NCBI GenBank assembly: GCA_033762255.1
Contig: JANRLT010000070.1
Span: 134,548-198,547 of the forward strand
Direction: 5' to 3'
Source: Pirellulales bacterium
GTDB taxonomy: Bacteria; Planctomycetota; Planctomycetia; Pirellulales; JALHPA01
Length of the DNA: 64,000 nt
Shown: positions 20,663 through 33,806 of the stretch, piece after piece
Layout: each line of letters starts with the position of its first letter
Position numbering within the stretch: position 1 is the stretch's first letter
The notes under the pieces: generated by a model
Seen by the model: only the letters and a program-made list of their open reading frames with translations
What the model was told of the DNA's origin: nothing
Databases searched by the model: none
Translations under genes and position numbers: made by a program

Positions 20663-22351
20663 ATGCAGCCATCTTCTCTCTTGGATTCCCCCGCGGCATT
20701 TCGCCGCGCGATTTACGCGCTTTTGATTGGTATCGCGGCCGCGCAATGGCTGGGGCGAATCATGGCGGTCAATTCATTGGATGTGATCGGGCTGGAACGG
20801 GACCTCAACAATCCCTCCAATCTGGCCAAGCGGGTCGAAAGCACCCGTAAAAACTGGCAATCCCGCGGAATTCCCTTTTCCGAGGAGCAGCTCCTCGCTA
20901 CTGTAAAGCAATCCGTGCAACTGCAACGCCCGTTTCTAAGCGGTAATGACCGCAGCCGCTGGCTGACCGTCCGGGCGCTCGTGGAAGGGGGAACCTATGA
21001 GATTGATGAATACTTTCAGCAGCCCGGTTGGGATTCGATCGACATTGTGTGCAAGCCCAACGCGGCGGGAGAGTTGCGGTTTTACTCCAGTAAACCGCCA
21101 TTCATGGCCACGGTTATCGCGGGTCAATATTGGCTACTACACAAGTTAACCGGCTGGACCCTGGGGGATCATCCCTACGAGCTAGGCCGAATCATGTTGA
21201 TCACGACCAACATCCTCCCCGCCGTGATTGCGTGGTGGCTGTTGGCCTTGCTAATTGATCGCTGGGCTATCAGTGACTGGGCCAAAATCGCCCTAGTCGC
21301 CGGGCTTTGCTTTGCCACCATGCTCACGCCTTTTATGATCGCGCTCAATAACCATTTGTGGGGCGCCGCCAGCGCGGTTTACGCCATCTGGTGTTGGCAG
21401 GGACTCTTTTTATCCGGCACGCAAAATACTCTCCCCCGGATGTTGTGGCTAGCCTTTTGGACCGGTCTTTGGGCCGGTGTGTGTGTTACCTGCGAACTGC
21501 CCGCCGCGGCTTTTTTGGGGTTATTACTGTTACTTTTGCTTTGGCAATTTGGCCTCCGCGCGGCTCTTGCGGCGACGGCGGGAGCCGTGTTTGTTTTGGC
21601 AATGACGTTAGGATTAAATTATTTGGCGATAGGGACGCTCAAACCGGCCTATGCATTTGGGGCGGGTGATGCCCGCAATAGTCGATTATCTGCCGCAGCC
21701 GATCAAAACCCGGATCCTGCCCCGGACAGTGCCAAAACCTTCAAACGCGATCCCGCGGCCAATCCCAGCTCTTGGGCCCCATTATCGGTCACGGCCCCTA
21801 ATCCTGCGAATTGGTACGATTATAAATACACCCGTAAAATTGACGGGAAAGAGGTTAAAAGCTACTGGCTGGCTCCTAATAATCCCATTGATCAAGGAGA
21901 GCCGCATGTCGGCGTGTATGCATTTCACGCGTTGGCGGGGCATCACGGTCTGTTTTCACTGACACCGCTGTTGTTATTAACGGTGCCGGGGTTAATCATC
22001 TGGCTTCGTCACGGCACCCCGGAACAGCGGCAATTTGCCCTACTTATCAGCGCGGTTAGTGTTATTTGCACCGGTTATTTTATTTTCGGGATGAATCAGG
22101 CCCAGCGGAATTACGGGGGCAACACAACTGCCTTTCGTTGGTTATTGTGGTTGCAGCCGCTGTGGATCATCGCGGCAATTCCCGCGACCGATTGGCTGGC
22201 GGGCCGCCGTTGGGGCCGCTTCGGTTTTTTGGTTTTGCTGGCCCTGTCTGTCTTCTCCGCCAGTTACCCAACCTGGAATCCCTGGGTACAACCCTGGTTA
22301 TGGAATGCCATGCAATATTGGGGCTGGCCGACGATGTCTCTAGCGGCATGA
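20663..22351 (+). CDS. Polytopic membrane protein, possible GT-C/GT39-like glycosyltransferase
   Basis: The 562-residue protein has an N-terminal helix and a large outer loop with NDRSRWLTVRALVEGGTYEID and FYSSKPPFMATVIAG. About ten further hydrophobic helices follow, with a second hydrophilic loop near residues 330-420. The loop with acidic residues after helix 1 fits the general GT-C plan (lipid-linked sugar donor, catalysis on the outer face), but no family signature is certain. It follows the GT2 gene by 29 nt and is likely co-transcribed with it, which supports a donor-synthase and transferase pair. Confidence 0.6.
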   Translation: MQPSSLLDSPAAFRRAIYALLIGIAAAQWLGRIMAVNSLDVIGLERDLNNPSNLAKRVESTRKNWQSRGIPFSEEQLLATVKQSVQLQRPFLSGNDRSRWLTVRALVEGGTYEIDEYFQQPGWDSIDIVCKPNAAGELRFYSSKPPFMATVIAGQYWLLHKLTGWTLGDHPYELGRIMLITTNILPAVIAWWLLALLIDRWAISDWAKIALVAGLCFATMLTPFMIALNNHLWGAASAVYAIWCWQGLFLSGTQNTLPRMLWLAFWTGLWAGVCVTCELPAAAFLGLLLLLLLWQFGLRAALAATAGAVFVLAMTLGLNYLAIGTLKPAYAFGAGDARNSRLSAAADQNPDPAPDSAKTFKRDPAANPSSWAPLSVTAPNPANWYDYKYTRKIDGKEVKSYWLAPNNPIDQGEPHVGVYAFHALAGHHGLFSLTPLLLLTVPGLIIWLRHGTPEQRQFALLISAVSVICTGYFIFGMNQAQRNYGGNTTAFRWLLWLQPLWIIAAIPATDWLAGRRWGRFGFLVLLALSVFSASYPTWNPWVQPWLWNAMQYWGWPTMSLAA

Positions 22352-22545
22352 GGATGTCAGCCGCTTTGGGATTTTAGTTCTGATGGGTTGTTTTTGGCAC
22401 TCCCATGCGAAACATGAGAACCGTCAGCCAGGACAAGCTTGCGTGAAACCGCAGAAAATCGCGGGAGTTCGCTGTATCAAGGTTCTTATTATGTTTTTTG
22501 ACTCTTTCCATCTCTAATTTTATGCAACTTTTAATAAATTCATGC

Positions 22546-23508
22546 ATGGATTTGAACTATTGGTGGGTGCACACCCCGGCGAAGATAAATATCACACTAG
22601 AAGTTTTGGGTAAAAGAGCCGATGGCTATCATGGCATTCGCAGCTTAATGTTGCCGATTGCTCTTTATGACACACTCCGGTTGGACATCCCCCCCCGATT
22701 GGCAAATGAGAACAATTCTCAATTGCAGTTGGATTGTTATTGGTCGGAGCAATTCTTTACGGGGCGAAAATTGGATTGTTACGACACGAAAACAAGCGAT
22801 TCATCACTGCCGGGAAGAGAAAGCTTACCCACGGATCATCATAATTTGGTTTACCGCGCGGTGGAGTTATTGCGAAAAAAAACCGGTTTTTTGCAGGATT
22901 TGCGGTTAACGCTATGTAAGCGCATCCCCACCCAGGCGGGTCTGGGGGGTGGTTCGAGCGATGCCGCCGCGGCGCTCGTGTTGGTGAACCAGGCCTGCCG
23001 GTTAGGGCTGGATTGCCGGACATTGCAGGAATGGGGGGCGGAAATTGGAAGCGATGTGCCGTTTTTTATTAGTCCCGAACCGGCGGTGGTGGAAGGACGC
23101 GGAGAAAAAAAGGTTTCCATTTCTGGCGTTCCTCGGTTACATTGGATTTTGATTAAGCCGCGTGTGGCATTATCCACCGCGGCCGTTTATCGGCGGTTTG
23201 AATTGATGGCGGGTGAACCGCGGGCGACAGTCGATTTTACCTCGGCGGCGACCGCGGCGCTCTTAACCGGTGATGTGTGCTTATTAGGCAAGAATATGCA
23301 CAATGATCTGGAATCGGCGGCGCACGTATTGGCAGCAGAGATTGGCACAATCAAAGATGAATTGCGGCAGGCGGGTTGCATGACCCAATTGATGAGTGGC
23401 AGCGGTTCAAGTTTTTTTGGTCTGGCACGTTCGGCTCGTCACGCCAGGAAGATTGCGGGACGATTGCAAGCCCGTGGCTTGGGTCAGGTCTGGGCATTGC
23501 AGAACTGA
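22546..23508 (+). CDS. ispE: 4-diphosphocytidyl-2-C-methyl-D-erythritol kinase (MEP isoprenoid pathway)
   Basis: The protein has the GHMP-kinase features of Isp[21 protein letters not shown] at the N-terminus, with catalytic Lys and the DGYH signature, and [13 protein letters not shown] near residue 131 as ATP loop. A C-terminal GHMP motif [11 protein letters not shown] completes it. IspE phosphorylates CDP-ME in the MEP pathway. Start choice is uncertain: 22546 gives 320 residues with the usual short N-terminus, while an ATG at 22522 or TTG at 22498 would extend it. No Shine-Dalgarno sequence is seen. A spoVG-family gene starts 40 nt downstream; ispE and spoVG are also near each other in Bacillus. 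Confidence 0.92.
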
Positions 23509-23548
23509 ATTGTGGGCGACCACTCTCATGATTGGATGGAGAGTGCCA

Positions 23549-24157
23549 ATGGATATCACCGAAGTACGCATTAAACTAACCGAAGATAGCAGCGAGCGCT
23601 TGCAGGCGTTTTGCTCGATTACATTTGATCATTGCTTTGTCATTCGTGATCTCAAGATCATCGAGGGGACAAATGGCCCTTTCGTGGCCATGCCCAGCCG
23701 CAAATTGACGGCGCATTGTCCCCAATGTGGCTGTAAAAATCATTTGCGGGCTGGTTATTGCAATCAATGCGGGATGCGATTGCCCCCCGACCGCGTGGTA
23801 AAGGATGAGGATGGCCGGGCCAAGCTTTACGCCGACATCGCCCATCCCATCAATTCTGTCTGCCGAGAAATGATCCAAGAAAAAGTGGTGGCGGAATATT
23901 ATTTGGAGTTGGAACGGGCCAAGCAGCCGGGCTATGTTTCGCGGTATGATGATTACGATTACGAGGATTTTCATCCCGCGCGCAACACCCATGCCCGCCA
24001 TAATCCGCCGCATTACGCCAAATCCGCCGCGCCGGATAAACCCGCCCAGCATGCCCCCCGCGCGCCCCATGTCAAACACCAGCCCCCCCCCAGCGCCAAT
24101 CATCATAACCACCCTCCCGCCGGTCAAGCGGGGGACTTTGGAGCGGGCATTTTTTAA
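23549..24157 (+). CDS. spoVG: SpoVG-family protein with inserted zinc ribbon and His/Pro-rich tail
   Basis: The start at 23549 ([13 protein letters not shown]) has a GGAG sequence close upstream and matches the SpoVG N-terminus; the frame also stays open far upstream into ispE, which is rejected. Residues 1-55 and about 85-115 ([20 protein letters not shown]) are the two halves of the SpoVG fold, a small RNA/DNA-binding regulator. Between them sits [19 protein letters not shown] (about residues 57-75), a four-Cys zinc-ribbon-like insertion absent from Bacillus SpoVG. After residue 130 comes an acidic/Tyr patch and a His/Pro/Ala-rich low-complexity tail. The regulatory target is not known. Confidence 0.85.
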
Positions 24158-24199
24158 GTTTGCTCTTAATTAGGTAATCCATCCTTTAATGCTCAGTCG

Positions 24200-25111
24200 C
24201 TAGCGCGGATCAAGGACTGAACGCGGATTGAGGGTGGTCAGTCGCAAGATATCCCCTGGCTCGAGCGACGTTTCGGTGGACAAACGCTTCGCCGCCAATG
24301 TCAATCCCACCGCCGACCCCACCAGATGCCCCCCGTCCGGCGACCGCGCGACCAGATCGGGACCGATCCGCAATTGCCAGCGGCCCAGCGTATAGTCTCC
24401 CGGTCCCAACCCCGCCGGGGCAATGGCGTCGCTGACCACGATCGCCCGGTCGATCCCAATCAGGCGGAGGTAATTTTCTAGCACAAAAAACGGCACATGC
24501 GCGCCGTCGGCAATCAGCGTGACCAAAAAGTGTTCGCGCAGGGCCAGGACGCGTTGAATGATGTTATCATGCCGGGGTAAGAGAGCCGGGCAGCCGTTTC
24601 CCAGGTGCGTAAAGAGGGTGCAGCCCGCTGCCGCGGCGGCGCGTAATTGCGCTCGACTGGCGTCCGTGTGTCCCGCCGCGACGCACACGTTCCGTTCTGC
24701 TAAAAAACGCGTTACGCGCAGTTGGTCATCCGCCTCGGGTGCCAGGGTCACCAGTCGGACCAGCCCGTTTCCCGCCACGAGCAGTTGTTCCATGCTGGAA
24801 ACATCCGCTGGCAAAATCGCGTCGCGGGGGTGCGCGCCGCGGTAACCGTCGGCCGGATTCAAAAACGGCCCCTCCACATGCAATCCGATCAAACAATCTT
24901 GGATGTGGGGTAGTTCGCCATAATAGGCCGCCAGCCGCGCCAACCGCGCACACATCACGGGTACATGATCGGTGATAACCGTCGCCAAAAACTGTCCCAC
25001 TCCATCCGCCACCAATTGCGCGCAGGCCAGTTCCATCTGCGCCGCGGTTAGTGTGTCACTATTGAAATCCACGCCGCCATAACCGTTAACTTGTAAATCG
25101 CAGGGAAGCAT
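24200..25111 (-). CDS. nagA: N-acetylglucosamine-6-phosphate deacetylase-like amidohydrolase
   Basis: The 303-residue protein starts MLPCDLQVNGYGGVDFN, corresponding to the strand after the small N-terminal sandwich of long NagA, so it is about 80 residues shorter than E. coli NagA. Catalytic-site motifs are present: HVEGPFLNP (Glu ligand), AGHTDAS and FTHLGN (His ligands), DGAHVPFF and VSDAIAPAG (catalytic Asp). The usual THLFNAM next to the active site reads THLGNGCP here, which could change sugar recognition. NagA converts GlcNAc-6-P to GlcN-6-P in amino-sugar recycling. The gene is downstream of folD on the same strand, separated by a pair of REP-like hairpins. Confidence 0.75.
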   Translation of the reverse strand: MLPCDLQVNGYGGVDFNSDTLTAAQMELACAQLVADGVGQFLATVITDHVPVMCARLARLAAYYGELPHIQDCLIGLHVEGPFLNPADGYRGAHPRDAILPADVSSMEQLLVAGNGLVRLVTLAPEADDQLRVTRFLAERNVCVAAGHTDASRAQLRAAAAAGCTLFTHLGNGCPALLPRHDNIIQRVLALREHFLVTLIADGAHVPFFVLENYLRLIGIDRAIVVSDAIAPAGLGPGDYTLGRWQLRIGPDLVARSPDGGHLVGSAVGLTLAAKRLSTETSLEPGDILRLTTLNPRSVLDPR

Positions 25112-25146
25112 GGTTGTCCAAATTTTTGCCCCGTCAGAGTTTTAGT

Positions 25147-25246
25147 GTCGTCATCACACTCCGTGTGATGCATCAAACTGCAATGGCAGCGCAACCTTAG
25201 GGTAATGACCAATTAACACACCCTCTCACGGAGTGAGAGGAGTACA
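25147..25246. repeat. Inverted pair of REP-like hairpins after folD
   Basis: Plus strand: head GTCGT, then CATCACAC-TCC-GTGTGATG (25152-25170). About 50 nt further is CCTCTCAC-GGA-GTGAGAGG (25222-25240), whose reverse complement reads head GT(A)CT, stem, TCC loop. The two are the same kind of element in opposite orientation. The second hairpin overlaps the 3' end of folD and supplies its last codons and TGA stop. Confidence 0.8.
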
Positions 25247-26116
25247 ATTCGTCGCCAGTTGCGCGGCGGTCAGTGTGTTAAGGAGCAGCATGGCCACGGT
25301 CAGCGGCCCAACGCCTCCGGGGACCGGGGTAATGGCTCCAGCAACCTGTTGTACCGCGTCAAAGTCCACGTCGCCGCATAGCTTGCCCATGGCATCCCGA
25401 TTGATCCCCACATCGATGACGGTCGCCCCGGGGCGCACCATTTCCGCTGTCACATACCGCGGCTGGCCAATCGCCGCTACCAAGATTTCCGCCTCGCGCG
25501 TGTGCCAGGCGACTTCCCGCGTTCGGCTATGGCAGACGGTGACCGTGGCATCGGCCCCTTTTTGCAACAGCATATTAGCCAGCGGCTTACCCACGATGTC
25601 GCTACGACCCAGGATCACGACCCGCCGACCCGTCAGAGAAATACCCGATCGCTGGCAAAGTTCTAACACCCCCCGGGGGGTACAAGGAAGAAACCGGGGT
25701 CGTCCCTGCACCAACAAGCCGACATTTTCCGCGTGAAACGCATCCACGTCTTTACGCGGGTCAATGGCGTCCAACACCCGCGTGGTGTCGATATGCGCGG
25801 GAAGGGGCAACTGCACCAAGATTCCATGCGTGGCGGGCTGATCGGCCGCGGGCTGGTTCAGGCGATAAATCAATTCCAATAATTCCGCGGTTGTGGTGGA
25901 CTGCGGCAGGGTGTACAGTCTTCCCCGCATCCCCACTTTTTCACACGCCAGGGCTTTATTGCGCACATAGACCTGGCTGGCGGGATTTTCCCCCACCAGC
26001 ACCACATCCAGCGCGGGGACTACTTTCGTGCGCGTGACAAATTCGGCAACCTGGCCAGCCAGTTCCGCCTGAATTTGCGCCGCACAGGCTTTGCCATCAA
26101 GAATCCGGGCCGTCAT
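25226..26116 (-). CDS. folD: Bifunctional methylene-THF dehydrogenase/methenyl-THF cyclohydrolase
   Basis: The 296-residue protein matches FolD throughout. VGENPASQVYVRNKALACEKVGM carries the catalytic Tyr/Lys region, then VQLPLPAHI, and DPRKDVDAFHAENVG. PCTPRGVLELC and the NADP-binding VVILGRSDIVGKPLA follow, and PVPGGVGPLTVAML is at the C-terminus. FolD interconverts 5,10-methylene-THF, methenyl-THF and 10-formyl-THF for purine and other one-carbon reactions. The final residues (CTPLTP) and stop codon are encoded by a REP-like hairpin, so the C-terminal tail was probably reshaped by repeat insertion. It is divergent from the isomerase-like gene at 26185. Confidence 0.95.
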   Translation of the reverse strand: MTARILDGKACAAQIQAELAGQVAEFVTRTKVVPALDVVLVGENPASQVYVRNKALACEKVGMRGRLYTLPQSTTTAELLELIYRLNQPAADQPATHGILVQLPLPAHIDTTRVLDAIDPRKDVDAFHAENVGLLVQGRPRFLPCTPRGVLELCQRSGISLTGRRVVILGRSDIVGKPLANMLLQKGADATVTVCHSRTREVAWHTREAEILVAAIGQPRYVTAEMVRPGATVIDVGINRDAMGKLCGDVDFDAVQQVAGAITPVPGGVGPLTVAMLLLNTLTAAQLATNCTPLTP

Positions 26117-28223: not shown

Positions 28224-31200
28224 TTACTCGATAAATTTTTTGATCAAAAACGCCTTATCCACGTTGTGGTTTTGGCCACGTTCAAAGGCGACGGGGCGGC
28301 TGCGGTCGATAATCGCAAATCCGCGATGGCGCGTGATCTCTCCCGTGTCGCTCCCCAGCTCTTGGCCGATCAAAAACGCCGGCGCTTGCGGGTCACCCGT
28401 GGTGTTGCCATTGGGCGTTACTTCAAAGTAACCGACTGTGACCCAAATGGCGTACACATTGGACCGGGTGGTGACCAGATTTGAAATGCGCTCCATATTT
28501 TGGGTCGCCAGGGGGTAATGCTGCGTGGGATTGCGGTACTCGTCCGTGGCCAGGGATTGCTCGGGACCAAATAGCAGCGTGGCGCCATCTGGTTGGCCGT
28601 TGACGTCGGGCTTGGTCCGCAACAGCGTCACATCCAGCGGATTGAGCGGCGCGTTCCCGGGTTTGGTCGTGCTATAGTTGGGGATCACCAGCGCGTTTTC
28701 ATTAGCCGAGCGGAACGGATTGCCAAATTTGGTGATGGGATTGGCGGCGGCATGTCCCCGACGCGAACTGACCAAATCTGCAAACGTGCCGCCGTATTTG
28801 CCCCGCGTGGGATCATTCCAGCCGTTCATCACGGCATCCCACGCGCGCTGGTTGTTGACCGTGTTGATGTTCACACGGCCCGGCTCGCGAAAATGCGAAA
28901 AACTGTGAAACGGTGGACGAAAACGATTGAGCGGGGACGTCGGGGGGATCACCGCCGCGCCGCTGGTCCCGCCGGGATTCAGCCAATCCTCATTTCCCGC
29001 AAAGCGCGGGGCCGTCGCCACCCAATCTAAAATCCGATAAAAACCGTGGGCCTGTTGGTTAGGCGCTGTGGCGGGCTTGGTCGCAAAAAAGTTCAGCATA
29101 TGGCCATAGGCCGGTCCCGGCGGCGTCGGCGGCGCCCCGCCGTACCAGGGGTTCAGGCTGTTGGCCGTGTTATCCACGAACAGCGGCTGCCCGGGGTTTT
29201 GGGGTTGCAGGTTGAATGCCTCGCTCCCTAGACGACTGGCGGAACAGGCGGGGACATGCATGATTTCGTAGGGATTATGAAACGGGCGATTCGCCCAGGA
29301 CATGTTGGGAAACGCCCGGCGGGGACTGCCGCGATAGCGCTGATTCGTTCCGTAGGTGGCGTCATCGATGGGATCGCCATAGGTTTGGTTCAGGTAGCCC
29401 AGCGATTGGCCGGGCTTGGTATTGGTCTGTTCGATGTCCTCCTTAAAGACCAGCGTCATGCTATTTCCCGTCAGCACGTCGGTCCGGCGTTCGCTGTTTT
29501 GCCGCCAAATGTTGACCTGGTCGGCGCGGGGCGTATTGTTGGGCATGTAACCGGCCAGATCGCCGGGCATGGCCGCGCGCTGTCGCGAGGACAAAACCGG
29601 ATGGGCGTTTTTGCCATTGGGATCATCCGGATCAAAGTCGCTATCATTGAATTTGCCGCTATCGGCCGAGGGGACGCGGTCATCGCCGTTGAACACCGTC
29701 AGGTCGATCGGCAGCCAATCGACCGTGATGTAGGGGTTGCGCTCGGGATGGTAATGGGCCGTCGGGTCCGCCACCCGTTGCAGGACAAGGGTTTTATAGT
29801 TGTCGGTTGTTCGGGTTTCGAGCAGGTTTTGCTGCTTGAGCGGCATATTTCCGCGGCTGTCCAGAGGCTTATCCAAAAAGAGCTTTGTCGTATCGACTTC
29901 ATCCAAGTCGCCGTACGCCTCGTCCAGGCCGGTTTCGGGATTGGTCTCATTTGGCCGGGGATAATAGTTGGCGGCCGACCACACCGGCTCTGAGATGCTA
30001 AAGCCGACATATTCATTCGTCCAATCCGTGCGATTGGCCCCCCCCGCCGCGTGTTTGCTGGTGGGAGATCCAAAACTACCGATCGTAATGAGCGCGGCGG
30101 AATTGTAATTAGCCGTGGGCTGGTTGGGATTGCCCGCGGTGTTAGTGATCTGCACGGTGTTCTTGCCGTTTTGTAGGATAAACTGGTTTTGGTTATTCAG
30201 GCGAAACTTAAACTGCTGGGGACTGCTGACGCGGGCTTCGGGTCCGCCCATCATGGCGGCGGGCTGCAAATCATGTCCCAGGGGAAAACAGCGCAGGCCA
30301 TTCCTGTCAAAGCCCATCTGCCCCGACTTGGTCGTCCCTCCGGGAACGATGACCGCGTATTGCCCGCCAAACAGCGACAGATTATCAATGTCTCCGGGAG
30401 GATTTCTTGTGGGAAAGCTGACCAGACCAGGATTGGGTGGTGTGTTGACCTCGTTATAGCAGTACAGCAAATCATTATCGGGAATTTGCGGATTGATGTC
30501 CTGACGCTGGGCAAAGACCACGATCCGTTCGATATCGGGATATGTCTGTCCCTGGGCGTTGGTTTGAATGGTCGGTGGCAGCGTGGTGCCGTTGGGATTG
30601 GAGGCGGAGTGCATGTTCCCCGTGACAAACTGCGGCGTTTGGTACGTGGCATACAGCGCCTGGTTGGGATCGCGGGACTTGGTCAAAAAGTCGTTGTTGG
30701 GATTGGTGTTGGGCCGGGTTACCACAATTCGCCAGACGGGGATGCCGTCGGGGGTGACTTTGTTCAGTTTGAGCCGCCAGCACTGATTGGCTGTGTCATA
30801 ATCGTACAAATCCGGGCATGCCTGCACGGAAATGGGGCTATGCGTCGCGTACAACTCCACAAACGCTGGCCCACGCGGAATAAGAGCCTGATCCAGATCG
30901 GGATCGTCATCGCGCAACATATCCTTGGGATCGGTGTCATCCATGCCGTTGCTGTCTCGTTTTTTCATTGCCCCGTCGTCATGCTTGGAATCGCGGACGC
31001 GGCGGTCGTGCCAGGCGATACCCTCCGTCAATAAGAGCGCGGGAGCCTCGCACCCCCAGACAATCCGCTTGTCGCTGGATTGGGTATTGTAGGTTTCCAT
31101 CGGGGAGATGATGCCGTTAGCCTCGACATCCCACCCCTGGTTGAGCGGGTTCACATCGTACTCAAACGGCGTCATGATGTTGTCGCTGTCCATGTACTCC

Positions 31201-33806
31201 ACCACATTAATCGCCCATTGCGCGATGCGGCGGCGCAGTTGCTCGCTGGCGGCGGAAACCGTGGTTTGGGCGTTCCCTTCTAGTTCTCCCGTGGACCAGA
31301 GCATGAGCATGTACAGATACTTGGCCACCTGCTGCCGGACCAGCGGATTATCGTTGAAGTCGGCCAGATTGTTGGTGTCGGACAAGTCGTTGACATTAAC
31401 CCCCTGGGTCAACTGCATGGCGTGCGTGCCGTTAATCTGGGCGTTCGCCGCGCTCACGCCATAGGCGGTGTTGAGCGACGCATAATTTAGCTGATGTACG
31501 CTGCTGTTAGCTGGTTGGATCGTCGTGGGGTCGCCGGGGGTGCTGTAATACTCGCTCATTTCATCCACGACGCCGTTGTTATTATCATCCAGGCCATTAC
31601 CCAGCGGCCAATTCAGATTAAACTTTTGCCCGGCCAGCATTTCCGGCGGTAAATACTTGCGAATTTCCGCCTGCTTTTGCGCGGGAGCGACGGTGGAGAC
31701 CAGCGTCGCCCAGGGATTGACCACCTGGTTATTGGCGTTGGCGATGGTCTCTAGCAGATGCGTGGTGGGCTGGCTATTGGCCCCGTTGTTGGGGATATAG
31801 GGCATGTGGACCGGCGTGTGCCAGCTTTCGGTGGTAAAGAGGTTGCGCTCGGGGACGACGCTGGAATTTGCCGCGCTGCCGTCAAAGGGACGCATCCGCC
31901 GCAGCCGCAGCGGCATTTGCAATGAATCAATATCGTTGGCCCGCAGGATCGCTTCTAGCTCGCTGGGGCTAAAGGGATTATCCACCTGGGGACGGGCAAT
32001 CCCGCGAGGCGCGCCCGCATGTAACAGCAGCTCATACGGAGCATTGAGCATCTCTTGATTGGGCAGGGCTTTGGTGCCGCTTTTGATGATGTATAGCGGA
32101 TTTCCCTGAAAGTCGATTCCCGTGGCCAAACGCCCCCAGATATCCGGCGGGGCCGAGCCATACACGCCTAAATAATTTAACCCCGAAGCGTTGGGAAAGG
32201 TCAGGTTAAACGCGGCGGCGGGGCTGCCCGTGTAATCGCGCGGCGTCCCTCCCGCCCGCAGCACCCAGGCCCAATGCGCGGGGCTGGCGATCCCCGCCTC
32301 GCCATTGGCGGCGTAACGACCATTGGGGGCGTTAAAAAAGAGGGCTGGGTCGGCGTTGAGGGCGATGCCCAGGTTGATTTCCGCGGTTCCATAACCCGAC
32401 CCGGCGGGCAAGATAAAGCCCCCCGCCGCACCCCCGGCGGCGGTCGCCAGCGGGGGCATCCCCGGCACGTTCGGACTATTGTAGATGGCCATATCCTGGG
32501 CCTTATTCCCGGCGGTGTTCAGATTAATCCGGCCATCCATGTCCAAAATGAGCGGGGCGATCAAGCGCTTGTACAGGCGGCCATCCTTGGTCATTTGCAA
32601 GGGAAAGTTCGGATCAATCCAGACGCTATCGGTGATGCCGTCGCCATCGTTGTCGACATCCCACTGCAACTGGCGATTGTCCGTCTGATACAGCAGTTGC
32701 AACCGCTGTTGGGGATTGACCGCCGCGTGCGTGGGATTACTGCCGGTAAAGTTGGGGTGTTCCAGCGGATTGGGGCGAAACATCAGCGTCCGCAGCAGCC
32801 TATTATCATTGCCCGCGGAATTTGCCAATGTCCGCAGCAAATCCGGATCATGAAACGAAGGCTTTACCTGTCCCGCGACGTCCAGCCGGATGTTTTGATT
32901 ATTTAAGTCGTAATACGCCAAAAACGCGTTTTGCACGTCCGGGGCGTCGTACGATTCGTTCATGCTCCAGACCGCGGGATTGAGGTGCATGCCCAAGAGT
33001 CCGGCGTTGTTAATAAGCAGCGCCAGCGGCTGGCTATTCATGCTAACAAAAGAGAGCTGGCCGTCGGTCTGATTATAACCCACGCCGGTGCCGGAAAATT
33101 CCCGCCCATTGATGAGAACGGTGTCCCCCTGGAGGGGTTGGACGGCGGCCCCCAGTTGATCGCGAAAGGACTGCACAAACAGGGTAATGCGGTTGGTATT
33201 TTGGGGAGTCTGGGAACTCACAATCCTCGAGCTGAGGACCTTGGCGTGGTTGGCGTTATTGGCGGTGCTAGTACCGATAATGCTAATGACCCGGCCGTCA
33301 TAATAGGCGGGGGTGGTGTTAAAGGACTGGCCATTCTGGGGGACTAAATCCAACGCCAGGACCATATTATTTGTGCCGGGTAGGTTGGCAGTTACCGACA
33401 CCACCTGCGCGCGAACGCTCTGGCTGCCAAAGATATCTTCTAACAGGGACTGGTGGATGAGCGCCGAGCCGGGAGAGAGCTCTCCGCGGAGCAGCGCGTA
33501 GAGCGACATGTCCACTTCGTTTTCCGGCGGGTCGCCGGTGATTTCCAGATTTTTGTACTGGTTGGCCGCGCGGCGGTTGGTATTAGCCACCAGCACAAAC
33601 GTGACGGAAATCATCACAAACAAAAAGAGCAGCGTCAAAACCACCAAGATCAAAATCCCCCTGCGGTTGGCGCGCGCGGGGTGTTTTCGCCGGGGGAGCG
33701 GGGTTTGAGCATCAAAATTCAGAGGGGACATCTCTCGGCTCCGCATAAACGCCGCTTCCTGTTTGGCCCGGAAACGGCGTGGGTGTGTCAGCTTGGTGTG
33801 ATTCAT
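28224..33806 (-). CDS. Giant GspK/PilX-like pseudopilin (1860 residues)
   Basis: The N-terminus has a long basic leader (about 50 residues) ending RRG, followed by ILILVVLTLLFLFVMISVTF, a prepilin-type helix without the Glu at +5. Absence of Glu5 is typical of the GspK tip pseudopilin. GRINLNTA near residue 422 and PGRVNINTV near residue 1642 match the GspK INxNTA signature. Asp-rich calcium-binding-like loops occur near 380 (DVDNDGDGITD) and 735 (DDNNNGVVDE). GspK proteins are usually 300-400 residues; this is about five times longer, with most of the extra length in Asn/Pro-rich beta-like sequence. It ends the pilus-like gene series and likely forms a large tip or exported surface domain. 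Internal starts at Met21 or Met26 are possible. Confidence 0.75.
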   Translation of the reverse strand: MNHTKLTHPRRFRAKQEAAFMRSREMSPLNFDAQTPLPRRKHPARANRRGILILVVLTLLFLFVMISVTFVLVANTNRRAANQYKNLEITGDPPENEVDMSLYALLRGELSPGSALIHQSLLEDIFGSQSVRAQVVSVTANLPGTNNMVLALDLVPQNGQSFNTTPAYYDGRVISIIGTSTANNANHAKVLSSRIVSSQTPQNTNRITLFVQSFRDQLGAAVQPLQGDTVLINGREFSGTGVGYNQTDGQLSFVSMNSQPLALLINNAGLLGMHLNPAVWSMNESYDAPDVQNAFLAYYDLNNQNIRLDVAGQVKPSFHDPDLLRTLANSAGNDNRLLRTLMFRPNPLEHPNFTGSNPTHAAVNPQQRLQLLYQTDNRQLQWDVDNDGDGITDSVWIDPNFPLQMTKDGRLYKRLIAPLILDMDGRINLNTAGNKAQDMAIYNSPNVPGMPPLATAAGGAAGGFILPAGSGYGTAEINLGIALNADPALFFNAPNGRYAANGEAGIASPAHWAWVLRAGGTPRDYTGSPAAAFNLTFPNASGLNYLGVYGSAPPDIWGRLATGIDFQGNPLYIIKSGTKALPNQEMLNAPYELLLHAGAPRGIARPQVDNPFSPSELEAILRANDIDSLQMPLRLRRMRPFDGSAANSSVVPERNLFTTESWHTPVHMPYIPNNGANSQPTTHLLETIANANNQVVNPWATLVSTVAPAQKQAEIRKYLPPEMLAGQKFNLNWPLGNGLDDNNNGVVDEMSEYYSTPGDPTTIQPANSSVHQLNYASLNTAYGVSAANAQINGTHAMQLTQGVNVNDLSDTNNLADFNDNPLVRQQVAKYLYMLMLWSTGELEGNAQTTVSAASEQLRRRIAQWAINVVEYMDSDNIMTPFEYDVNPLNQGWDVEANGIISPMETYNTQSSDKRIVWGCEAPALLLTEGIAWHDRRVRDSKHDDGAMKKRDSNGMDDTDPKDMLRDDDPDLDQALIPRGPAFVELYATHSPISVQACPDLYDYDTANQCWRLKLNKVTPDGIPVWRIVVTRPNTNPNNDFLTKSRDPNQALYATYQTPQFVTGNMHSASNPNGTTLPPTIQTNAQGQTYPDIERIVVFAQRQDINPQIPDNDLLYCYNEVNTPPNPGLVSFPTRNPPGDIDNLSLFGGQYAVIVPGGTTKSGQMGFDRNGLRCFPLGHDLQPAAMMGGPEARVSSPQQFKFRLNNQNQFILQNGKNTVQITNTAGNPNQPTANYNSAALITIGSFGSPTSKHAAGGANRTDWTNEYVGFSISEPVWSAANYYPRPNETNPETGLDEAYGDLDEVDTTKLFLDKPLDSRGNMPLKQQNLLETRTTDNYKTLVLQRVADPTAHYHPERNPYITVDWLPIDLTVFNGDDRVPSADSGKFNDSDFDPDDPNGKNAHPVLSSRQRAAMPGDLAGYMPNNTPRADQVNIWRQNSERRTDVLTGNSMTLVFKEDIEQTNTKPGQSLGYLNQTYGDPIDDATYGTNQRYRGSPRRAFPNMSWANRPFHNPYEIMHVPACSASRLGSEAFNLQPQNPGQPLFVDNTANSLNPWYGGAPPTPPGPAYGHMLNFFATKPATAPNQQAHGFYRILDWVATAPRFAGNEDWLNPGGTSGAAVIPPTSPLNRFRPPFHSFSHFREPGRVNINTVNNQRAWDAVMNGWNDPTRGKYGGTFADLVSSRRGHAAANPITKFGNPFRSANENALVIPNYSTTKPGNAPLNPLDVTLLRTKPDVNGQPDGATLLFGPEQSLATDEYRNPTQHYPLATQNMERISNLVTTRSNVYAIWVTVGYFEVTPNGNTTGDPQAPAFLIGQELGSDTGEITRHRGFAIIDRSRPVAFERGQNHNVDKAFLIKKFIE

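Follow-up and report, generated by a model that had tools for sequence, protein, structure and literature searches.

A predicted zinc ribbon grafted into SpoVG beside the counterparts of its DNA-binding residues across the Planctomycetota

The window analysed here, a stretch of 64,000 nucleotides from a bacterium of the order Pirellulales (Planctomycetota), encodes a SpoVG-like protein in which the middle is interrupted by a segment with four cysteines and the C-terminus is extended by a long tail. This raises the questions of whether the protein is a genuine SpoVG, what the interrupting segment is, how widely it occurs and what it may do. An earlier note on this DNA had read the segment as a zinc ribbon that splits the SpoVG fold at the point where Bacillus SpoVG has a short loop, and had suggested that it provides a new nucleic-acid or protein contact, possibly sensitive to redox state or zinc. 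The features of the locus are collected in Table 1.

Table 1. Coordinates of the features of the spoVG locus (positions of the window)
Feature	Coordinates	Strand	Basis or remark
ispE	22498..23508	+	TIGR00154 188.1 bits, cut-off 138.7; directly upstream of spoVG
Shine-Dalgarno-like GGAGAG	23538..23543	+	5 nt before the spoVG ATG; sequence
spoVG	23549..24157	+	202 aa, predicted zinc-ribbon insert and disordered tail; ATG 23549, stop 24155-24157
R51-K52 basic doublet (= S. aureus K50-R51)	23699..23704	+	phmmer alignment to 2IA9/2I9X
Predicted zinc ribbon, residues 53-78	23705..23782	+	Cys 57, 60, 71, 74; codon starts 23717, 23726, 23759, 23768
Variable linker to the SpoVG fold, residues 79-93	23783..23827	+	lowest conservation; pLDDT 78 at 81-90
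SpoVG C-terminal part, helix 103-124	23828..23920	+	model; Pfam match to residue 117
Predicted disordered tail, His/Pro-rich in the window species	23921..24154	+	pLDDT 46-71 in blocks
C-terminal peptide FGAGIF and stop	24137..24157	+	peptide type in 77/188 tails

The open reading frame is a true SpoVG of the planctomycete form, since PF04026 (SpoVG) covered residues 1-117 with 93.5 bits against a gathering cut-off of 29.6 and the structure model fitted B. subtilis SpoVG at 1.3 Å. It is the one SpoVG of its genome. The alignment by phmmer to 2IA9 and 2I9X ran over residues 1-52 and 94-118 and skipped the middle, with R51-K52 placed on the K-R of 2IA9, and the match to the NCBIfam equivalog NF009749 (septation regulator SpoVG) was likewise split by the insert, scoring 89.3 bits, which is under the curated cut-off of 108. 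The structure model, of the monomer only, was built from an alignment of 63 diverse sequences with 40-67% identity to the window protein, and reached a mean pLDDT of 92.9, with 92-93 in the ribbon and a lower value at residues 81-90. Its core fitted 2ia9_F with a VIA-align Z of 14.3 over 82 residues (45% identity). The Pfam and phmmer alignments, the model and the gap length in other SpoVGs given below all agree with the proposal that the four-Cys segment interrupts the fold where the Bacillus protein has its short loop. An antisense open frame of 183 aa (23576-24127, minus strand) lies opposite spoVG and is most likely a by-product of spoVG codon use.

The insert comprises about 36 residues between R51-K52 and the C-terminal helix, and its cysteines follow the pattern C57-x2-C60-x10-C71-x2-C74 within CPQCG-x9-YCNQCG. 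SpoVG was matched at E 0.001 in 172 of 294 genomes drawn across the phylum and in 55 of 57 relatives from the same order, and the resulting alignment held 195 rows, namely 194 loci of the phylum and the window; two further loci, L001 and L207, duplicate the window and were left out. All four cysteines were present in 194 of the 195 rows and invariant in the set of 63, so the pattern is not a product of chance, and the conservation in homologues on which the earlier note had let its reading stand or fall was borne out. In the sole exception, L058, a frame break follows the second cysteine and the next frame contains the second knuckle. A sequence error in this 77%-complete genome may be the cause. 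The possibility that the insert is an oddity of one gene or an assembly error is ruled out by the same count.

The surroundings of the cysteines were also constrained. The spacing doublet-x4-CxxC-x10-CxxC was fixed in all 163 rows that fit the strict motif, 190 of the 195 rows kept R51 and 184 kept K52, and the invariant columns among the 63 sequences were M48, P49, C57, C60, N64, C71, C74, G75, D96, P100 and R106. The ribbon averaged 2.90 bits per column, the two core parts 3.09 and 2.74, and the linker 1.80. All 63 members matched the DZR family (PF12773) at E 0.1, the best of them at 2.6e-9; the window protein itself matched at E 4.5e-4 with 20.8 bits, below the curated cut-off of 27.3 and over only positions 1-23 of 45. 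Like DZR and the related zinc-ribbon families PF13240 and PF13248, the window protein has two CxxC knuckles 10 residues apart, and both knuckles are kept in its relatives, which is the general mark of a zinc ribbon; it differs from those families in having a single ribbon, embedded in another fold, that scores under their curated cut-offs. The zinc-ribbon nature of the insert is thus strongly supported as a prediction from sequence and model. Two cysteines of the core are frequent in the phylum as well, C22 (23612-23614) in 173 and C105 (23861-23863) in 128 of the 195 rows. Among 116 SpoVGs of other groups, 66 had no cysteine in the first 110 residues.

To place the insert in a wider range of bacteria, the profile of the 63 sequences was searched in five other groups, which comprise 385 genomes with SpoVG and do not include Verrucomicrobiota, Chlamydiota or Lentisphaerota, the sister phyla. 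SpoVGs outside the phylum matched the profile only at positions 1-56 and then separately from about 88 on. No match spanning the insert was found in the phylum of a Syntrophaceae genome (SpoVG in 65 of 247 genomes), the phylum of the Myxococcus genome (76 of 117), the phylum of the WOR-3 genome (32 of 120) or one further group (5 of 5), nor among the matches listed for the phylum of the Eubacterium genome (207 of 299), where the best match scored 71.9 bits over positions 1-53. Among the matches listed for phages (in 8 of 11 records) and for plasmids (in 8 of 10), which were 231-282 nt long, the insert was likewise absent. Weak ribbon-only matches (E 4e-4 to 5e-7) in the phylum of the Syntrophaceae genome lay in other frames, some with internal stops. 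The distance from the doublet to the D..HP motif was exactly 7 residues in 114 of 116 SpoVG ORFs of other groups (none of the 116 had CxxC..CxxC) and 43 residues in 122 of 172 rows of the planctomycete form, which gives the latter 36 extra residues. By sequence comparison, the insert is phylum-wide and absent from the SpoVG matches listed for the five other groups; the search for SpoVGs with CxxC inserts that the earlier note had advised returned them throughout the phylum and, among the matches listed, in none of the 385 other genomes. A tree of the core with the ribbon left out was poorly resolved and did not reject a single clade of insert-bearing SpoVGs (p-AU 0.247); a second tree needs two changes, and its well supported branches force two.

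Several genomes of the same phylum carry additional genes of a divergent SpoVG-like accessory family, of the LLGWAS..FPxK/R type. Eleven such loci (L059, L060, L171-L179) failed the phmmer step and stand outside the 195 rows; the ten that were readable in frame (L060, L171-L179) scored about 22-42 bits to PF04026 and had no ribbon and a different core.

The insert itself is not new to the literature. Gupta et al. (2012; PMC3444138) described a SpoVG insert of 32-36 aa in all detected Planctomycetes and in none outside, and used it as a signature indel. The protein, the size of the insert and its phylum-wide range are the same, so that the window protein is an example of that indel and not a novelty of one gene. 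The paper treated the insert as a taxonomic marker, and its main text contains neither "zinc" nor "cysteine"; here it appears as a four-Cys ribbon beside the counterparts of DNA-binding residues. No description of the SpoVG insert as a zinc ribbon was found in the titles and abstracts of open-licence PMC papers, a collection that mostly leaves subscription papers outside. As far as searches of open-licence PMC papers go, the insert was already known, and its reading as a ribbon and its placement beside the DNA-binding residues are not in print.

The position of the ribbon was compared with what is known of nucleic-acid binding in other SpoVGs, which form oligomers, bind DNA and/or RNA and act as broad regulators (PMC3688583, PMC4959528). 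DNA binding depends on the doublet K50-R51 in S. aureus SpoVG and on R53-R54 in Borrelia, and sequence preference is set by six residues within the C-terminal helix (PMC3688583). The SpoVG of Listeria binds RNA (PMC4959528). R51-K52 and the helix 103-124 are the counterparts of these DNA-contacting elements in the window protein, with the ribbon as the connection between them. By analogy with S. aureus and Borrelia, in which doublet and helix bind DNA, the ribbon would lie inside the nucleic-acid face. The SpoVGs of Bacillus, Staphylococcus and Borrelia (PF04026; 2IA9, 2I9X, 2I9Z) share the core fold, the basic doublet and the C-terminal helix with the window protein, which differs from them in having the ribbon of 36 residues in place of a 7-residue loop, and a long tail predicted to be disordered. 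The contact proposed in the earlier note is plausible from the place of the ribbon beside the counterparts of residues that bind DNA in other species (PMC3688583).

The ribbon was basic throughout the set of 63, with a mean net charge of +3.30 and a minimum of +1 over residues 53-78. Lysine or arginine stood at position 56 in 52 members, at 59 in 34, at 63 in 61 (K63), at 67 in 49, at 69 in 32 and at 77 in 47, and H65 and R67 were frequent. The argument from charge is weak, because the control set consisted of only four ribbons, one of them itself a SpoVG row, with an average charge of +2. In the structure comparison, residues 50-80 of the model gave weak matches (Z about 2-3.5) to RanBP2/NZF-type zinc fingers and superposed on the RadD finger at 0.9 Å over 29 residues (Z 2.2). 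The second SpoVG of one genome (L180 of G012) has the doublet replaced by Leu-Pro and the ribbon intact with all four cysteines, which indicates that doublet and ribbon are not strictly coupled and makes this copy a natural test case for their joint action.

The tail is predicted to be disordered. A full-length model from 21 relatives had only one helix of 4 residues from residue 131 on, with the low pLDDT given in Table 1; it was also poor at residues 91-100, with a pLDDT of 45 as against 88 in the model from 63 rows. The His/Pro-rich tail that the earlier note had described is present, with 10 His and 13 Pro in 85 residues, but this richness did not turn out to be a trait of the family: among the 116 tails of more than 40 aa, for which the median was 0.02, the tail of the window protein had the highest His fraction, which makes the richness mostly a trait of the window species and a few relatives. 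What the tails do share is a peptide at the C-terminus, along with a PH motif in the members from the order. The peptide, F[G/S/A]xG[I/L/V], ended 77 of 188 tails, against a mean of 0.055 and a maximum of 1 in shuffled tails; leaving out the window, 24 of 30 tails from the order carried it, as did 52 of 157 from outside the order, and the PH motif was present in 26 of 30 and 14 of 157, respectively. Ends of the FGAGIF type were also noted at L191, L188, L185, L364, L366-L369, L372, L374, L381 and L384-L386. A search of 57 genomes for the pattern FGxG[ILM]F followed by a stop gave 39 places, of which 30 loci and one place in the window were read. All ORFs of at least 100 aa with this ending in the loci read were SpoVG except one of 445 aa (L365), the remaining places were short ORFs or lacked a stop, and no protein family other than SpoVG was found to share the peptide in these loci. 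At the end of a tail predicted to be disordered, the FGAGIF-type peptide resembles a short motif for docking.

The gene neighbourhood was conserved in part. The ispE stop and the spoVG ATG are 40 nt apart on the same strand, and ispE lay directly upstream of spoVG in the same orientation in 175 of the 192 loci of the phylum with at least 600 nt of DNA; the two genes are likely co-transcribed. No strong third neighbour was common to all planctomycete spoVG loci, the stretch 22300-24300 contained no promoter-like site on the plus strand and no terminator-like site, and Rfam gave no match in 22000-26000. The earlier note had felt reminded of Firmicutes by this pair, but ispE was also matched in the DNA around spoVG in 30 of the 116 loci from other groups, including Nitrospirae, Deltaproteobacteria, WOR-3 and the phylum of the Myxococcus genome, so that the pair is not peculiar to Firmicutes. 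The ORF after spoVG (24200-25111, minus strand) resembled N-acetylglucosamine-6-phosphate deacetylase at 154.5 bits, under the cut-off of 225.65, and had no Pfam match at E 1. Farther along, the N-terminal region of an ORF of 1860 aa (28224-33806, minus strand) includes a hydrophobic stretch that resembles those of pilins.

Taken as a whole, the protein is best explained as a SpoVG with one DZR-type zinc ribbon grafted into the loop between R51-K52 and the C-terminal helix. The four cysteines would hold a structural Zn(II); the net basic ribbon, flanked by the counterparts of two DNA-binding elements of other SpoVGs, may add contacts to RNA or DNA, and these extra contacts would change affinity or the choice of targets; the C-terminal peptide of the tail may dock a partner protein. 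We give this explanation an even chance of being right. A parallel is found in Borrelia and Helicobacter, where zinc ribbons with basic residues have likewise been proposed to contact RNA, but these are separate proteins of another ribbon family and are not fused into SpoVG (PMC13285594). Points against our explanation are that the weak structural matches of the ribbon include binders of ubiquitin and Ran, that L180 keeps the ribbon after losing the doublet, that the argument from charge is weak and that the window protein scores under the DZR cut-off. The model being one of the monomer, any position of the ribbon at the groove of the oligomer is putative. A more far-reaching version, in which the ribbon would read RNA or DNA beside the SpoVG groove and the FGxGIF tail would tether the protein to polymerase, RNase or ribosome, thus making a three-part post-transcriptional or nucleoid regulator rebuilt from SpoVG across the phylum, seems unlikely to us.

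The main rival to a nucleic-acid contact is protein docking, in which the ribbon would bind a partner such as RNA polymerase, the ribosome, an RNase or another regulator while nucleic acid stays on the old SpoVG surface. Most look-alikes of residues 46-81 are RanBP2/NZF fingers, many of them solved with Ran or ubiquitin, and the C-terminal peptide shared by many tails would be a second feature of the docking kind; the SpoVG of Borrelia sediments with subunits of RNA polymerase (PMC13285594). The finger matches, most of them to proteins of eukaryotes, are weak, however; the insert adjoins the DNA-binding doublet, and its conserved basic positions suit nucleic acid equally well. We regard docking by the ribbon as possible but less likely than not.

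Two further explanations concern the cysteines and the age of the insert. If the ribbon were left over from a single ancestral insertion, neutral except for stabilising the fold, its presence in nearly every row, and hence its age, would be accounted for, and the core-only tree leaves room for a single origin. Yet a relic would be expected to have been lost somewhere among 194 sequences, and the ribbon, with a nearly constant K63 and frequent H65 and R67, is conserved to about the same degree as the core, whereas the linker next to it varies. Such a relic is very unlikely. A sensing role, in which the ribbon would switch the activity of SpoVG in response to redox state or zinc, goes back to the earlier note and draws on the four cysteines gathered in one site beside the binding face and on the two frequent cysteines of the core. 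No trait of the sequence separates a sensor from a structural site, though, and the invariant cysteines, kept in all rows but one, fit a structural zinc site equally, which leaves the sensor idea unsupported. Cytosolic ribbons of the tetrathiolate type are mostly structural, which also counts against a sensor, and of the explanations considered we hold this one the least probable.

SpoVG is a widespread regulator in which the differences in nucleic-acid specificity between species have been explained in part. A ribbon grafted exactly between two DNA-contacting elements and fixed throughout a phylum may serve as a natural experiment on how such a regulator changes its targets, and the taxonomic marker of 2012 becomes a testable feature of the protein, in bacteria with little-studied gene regulation.
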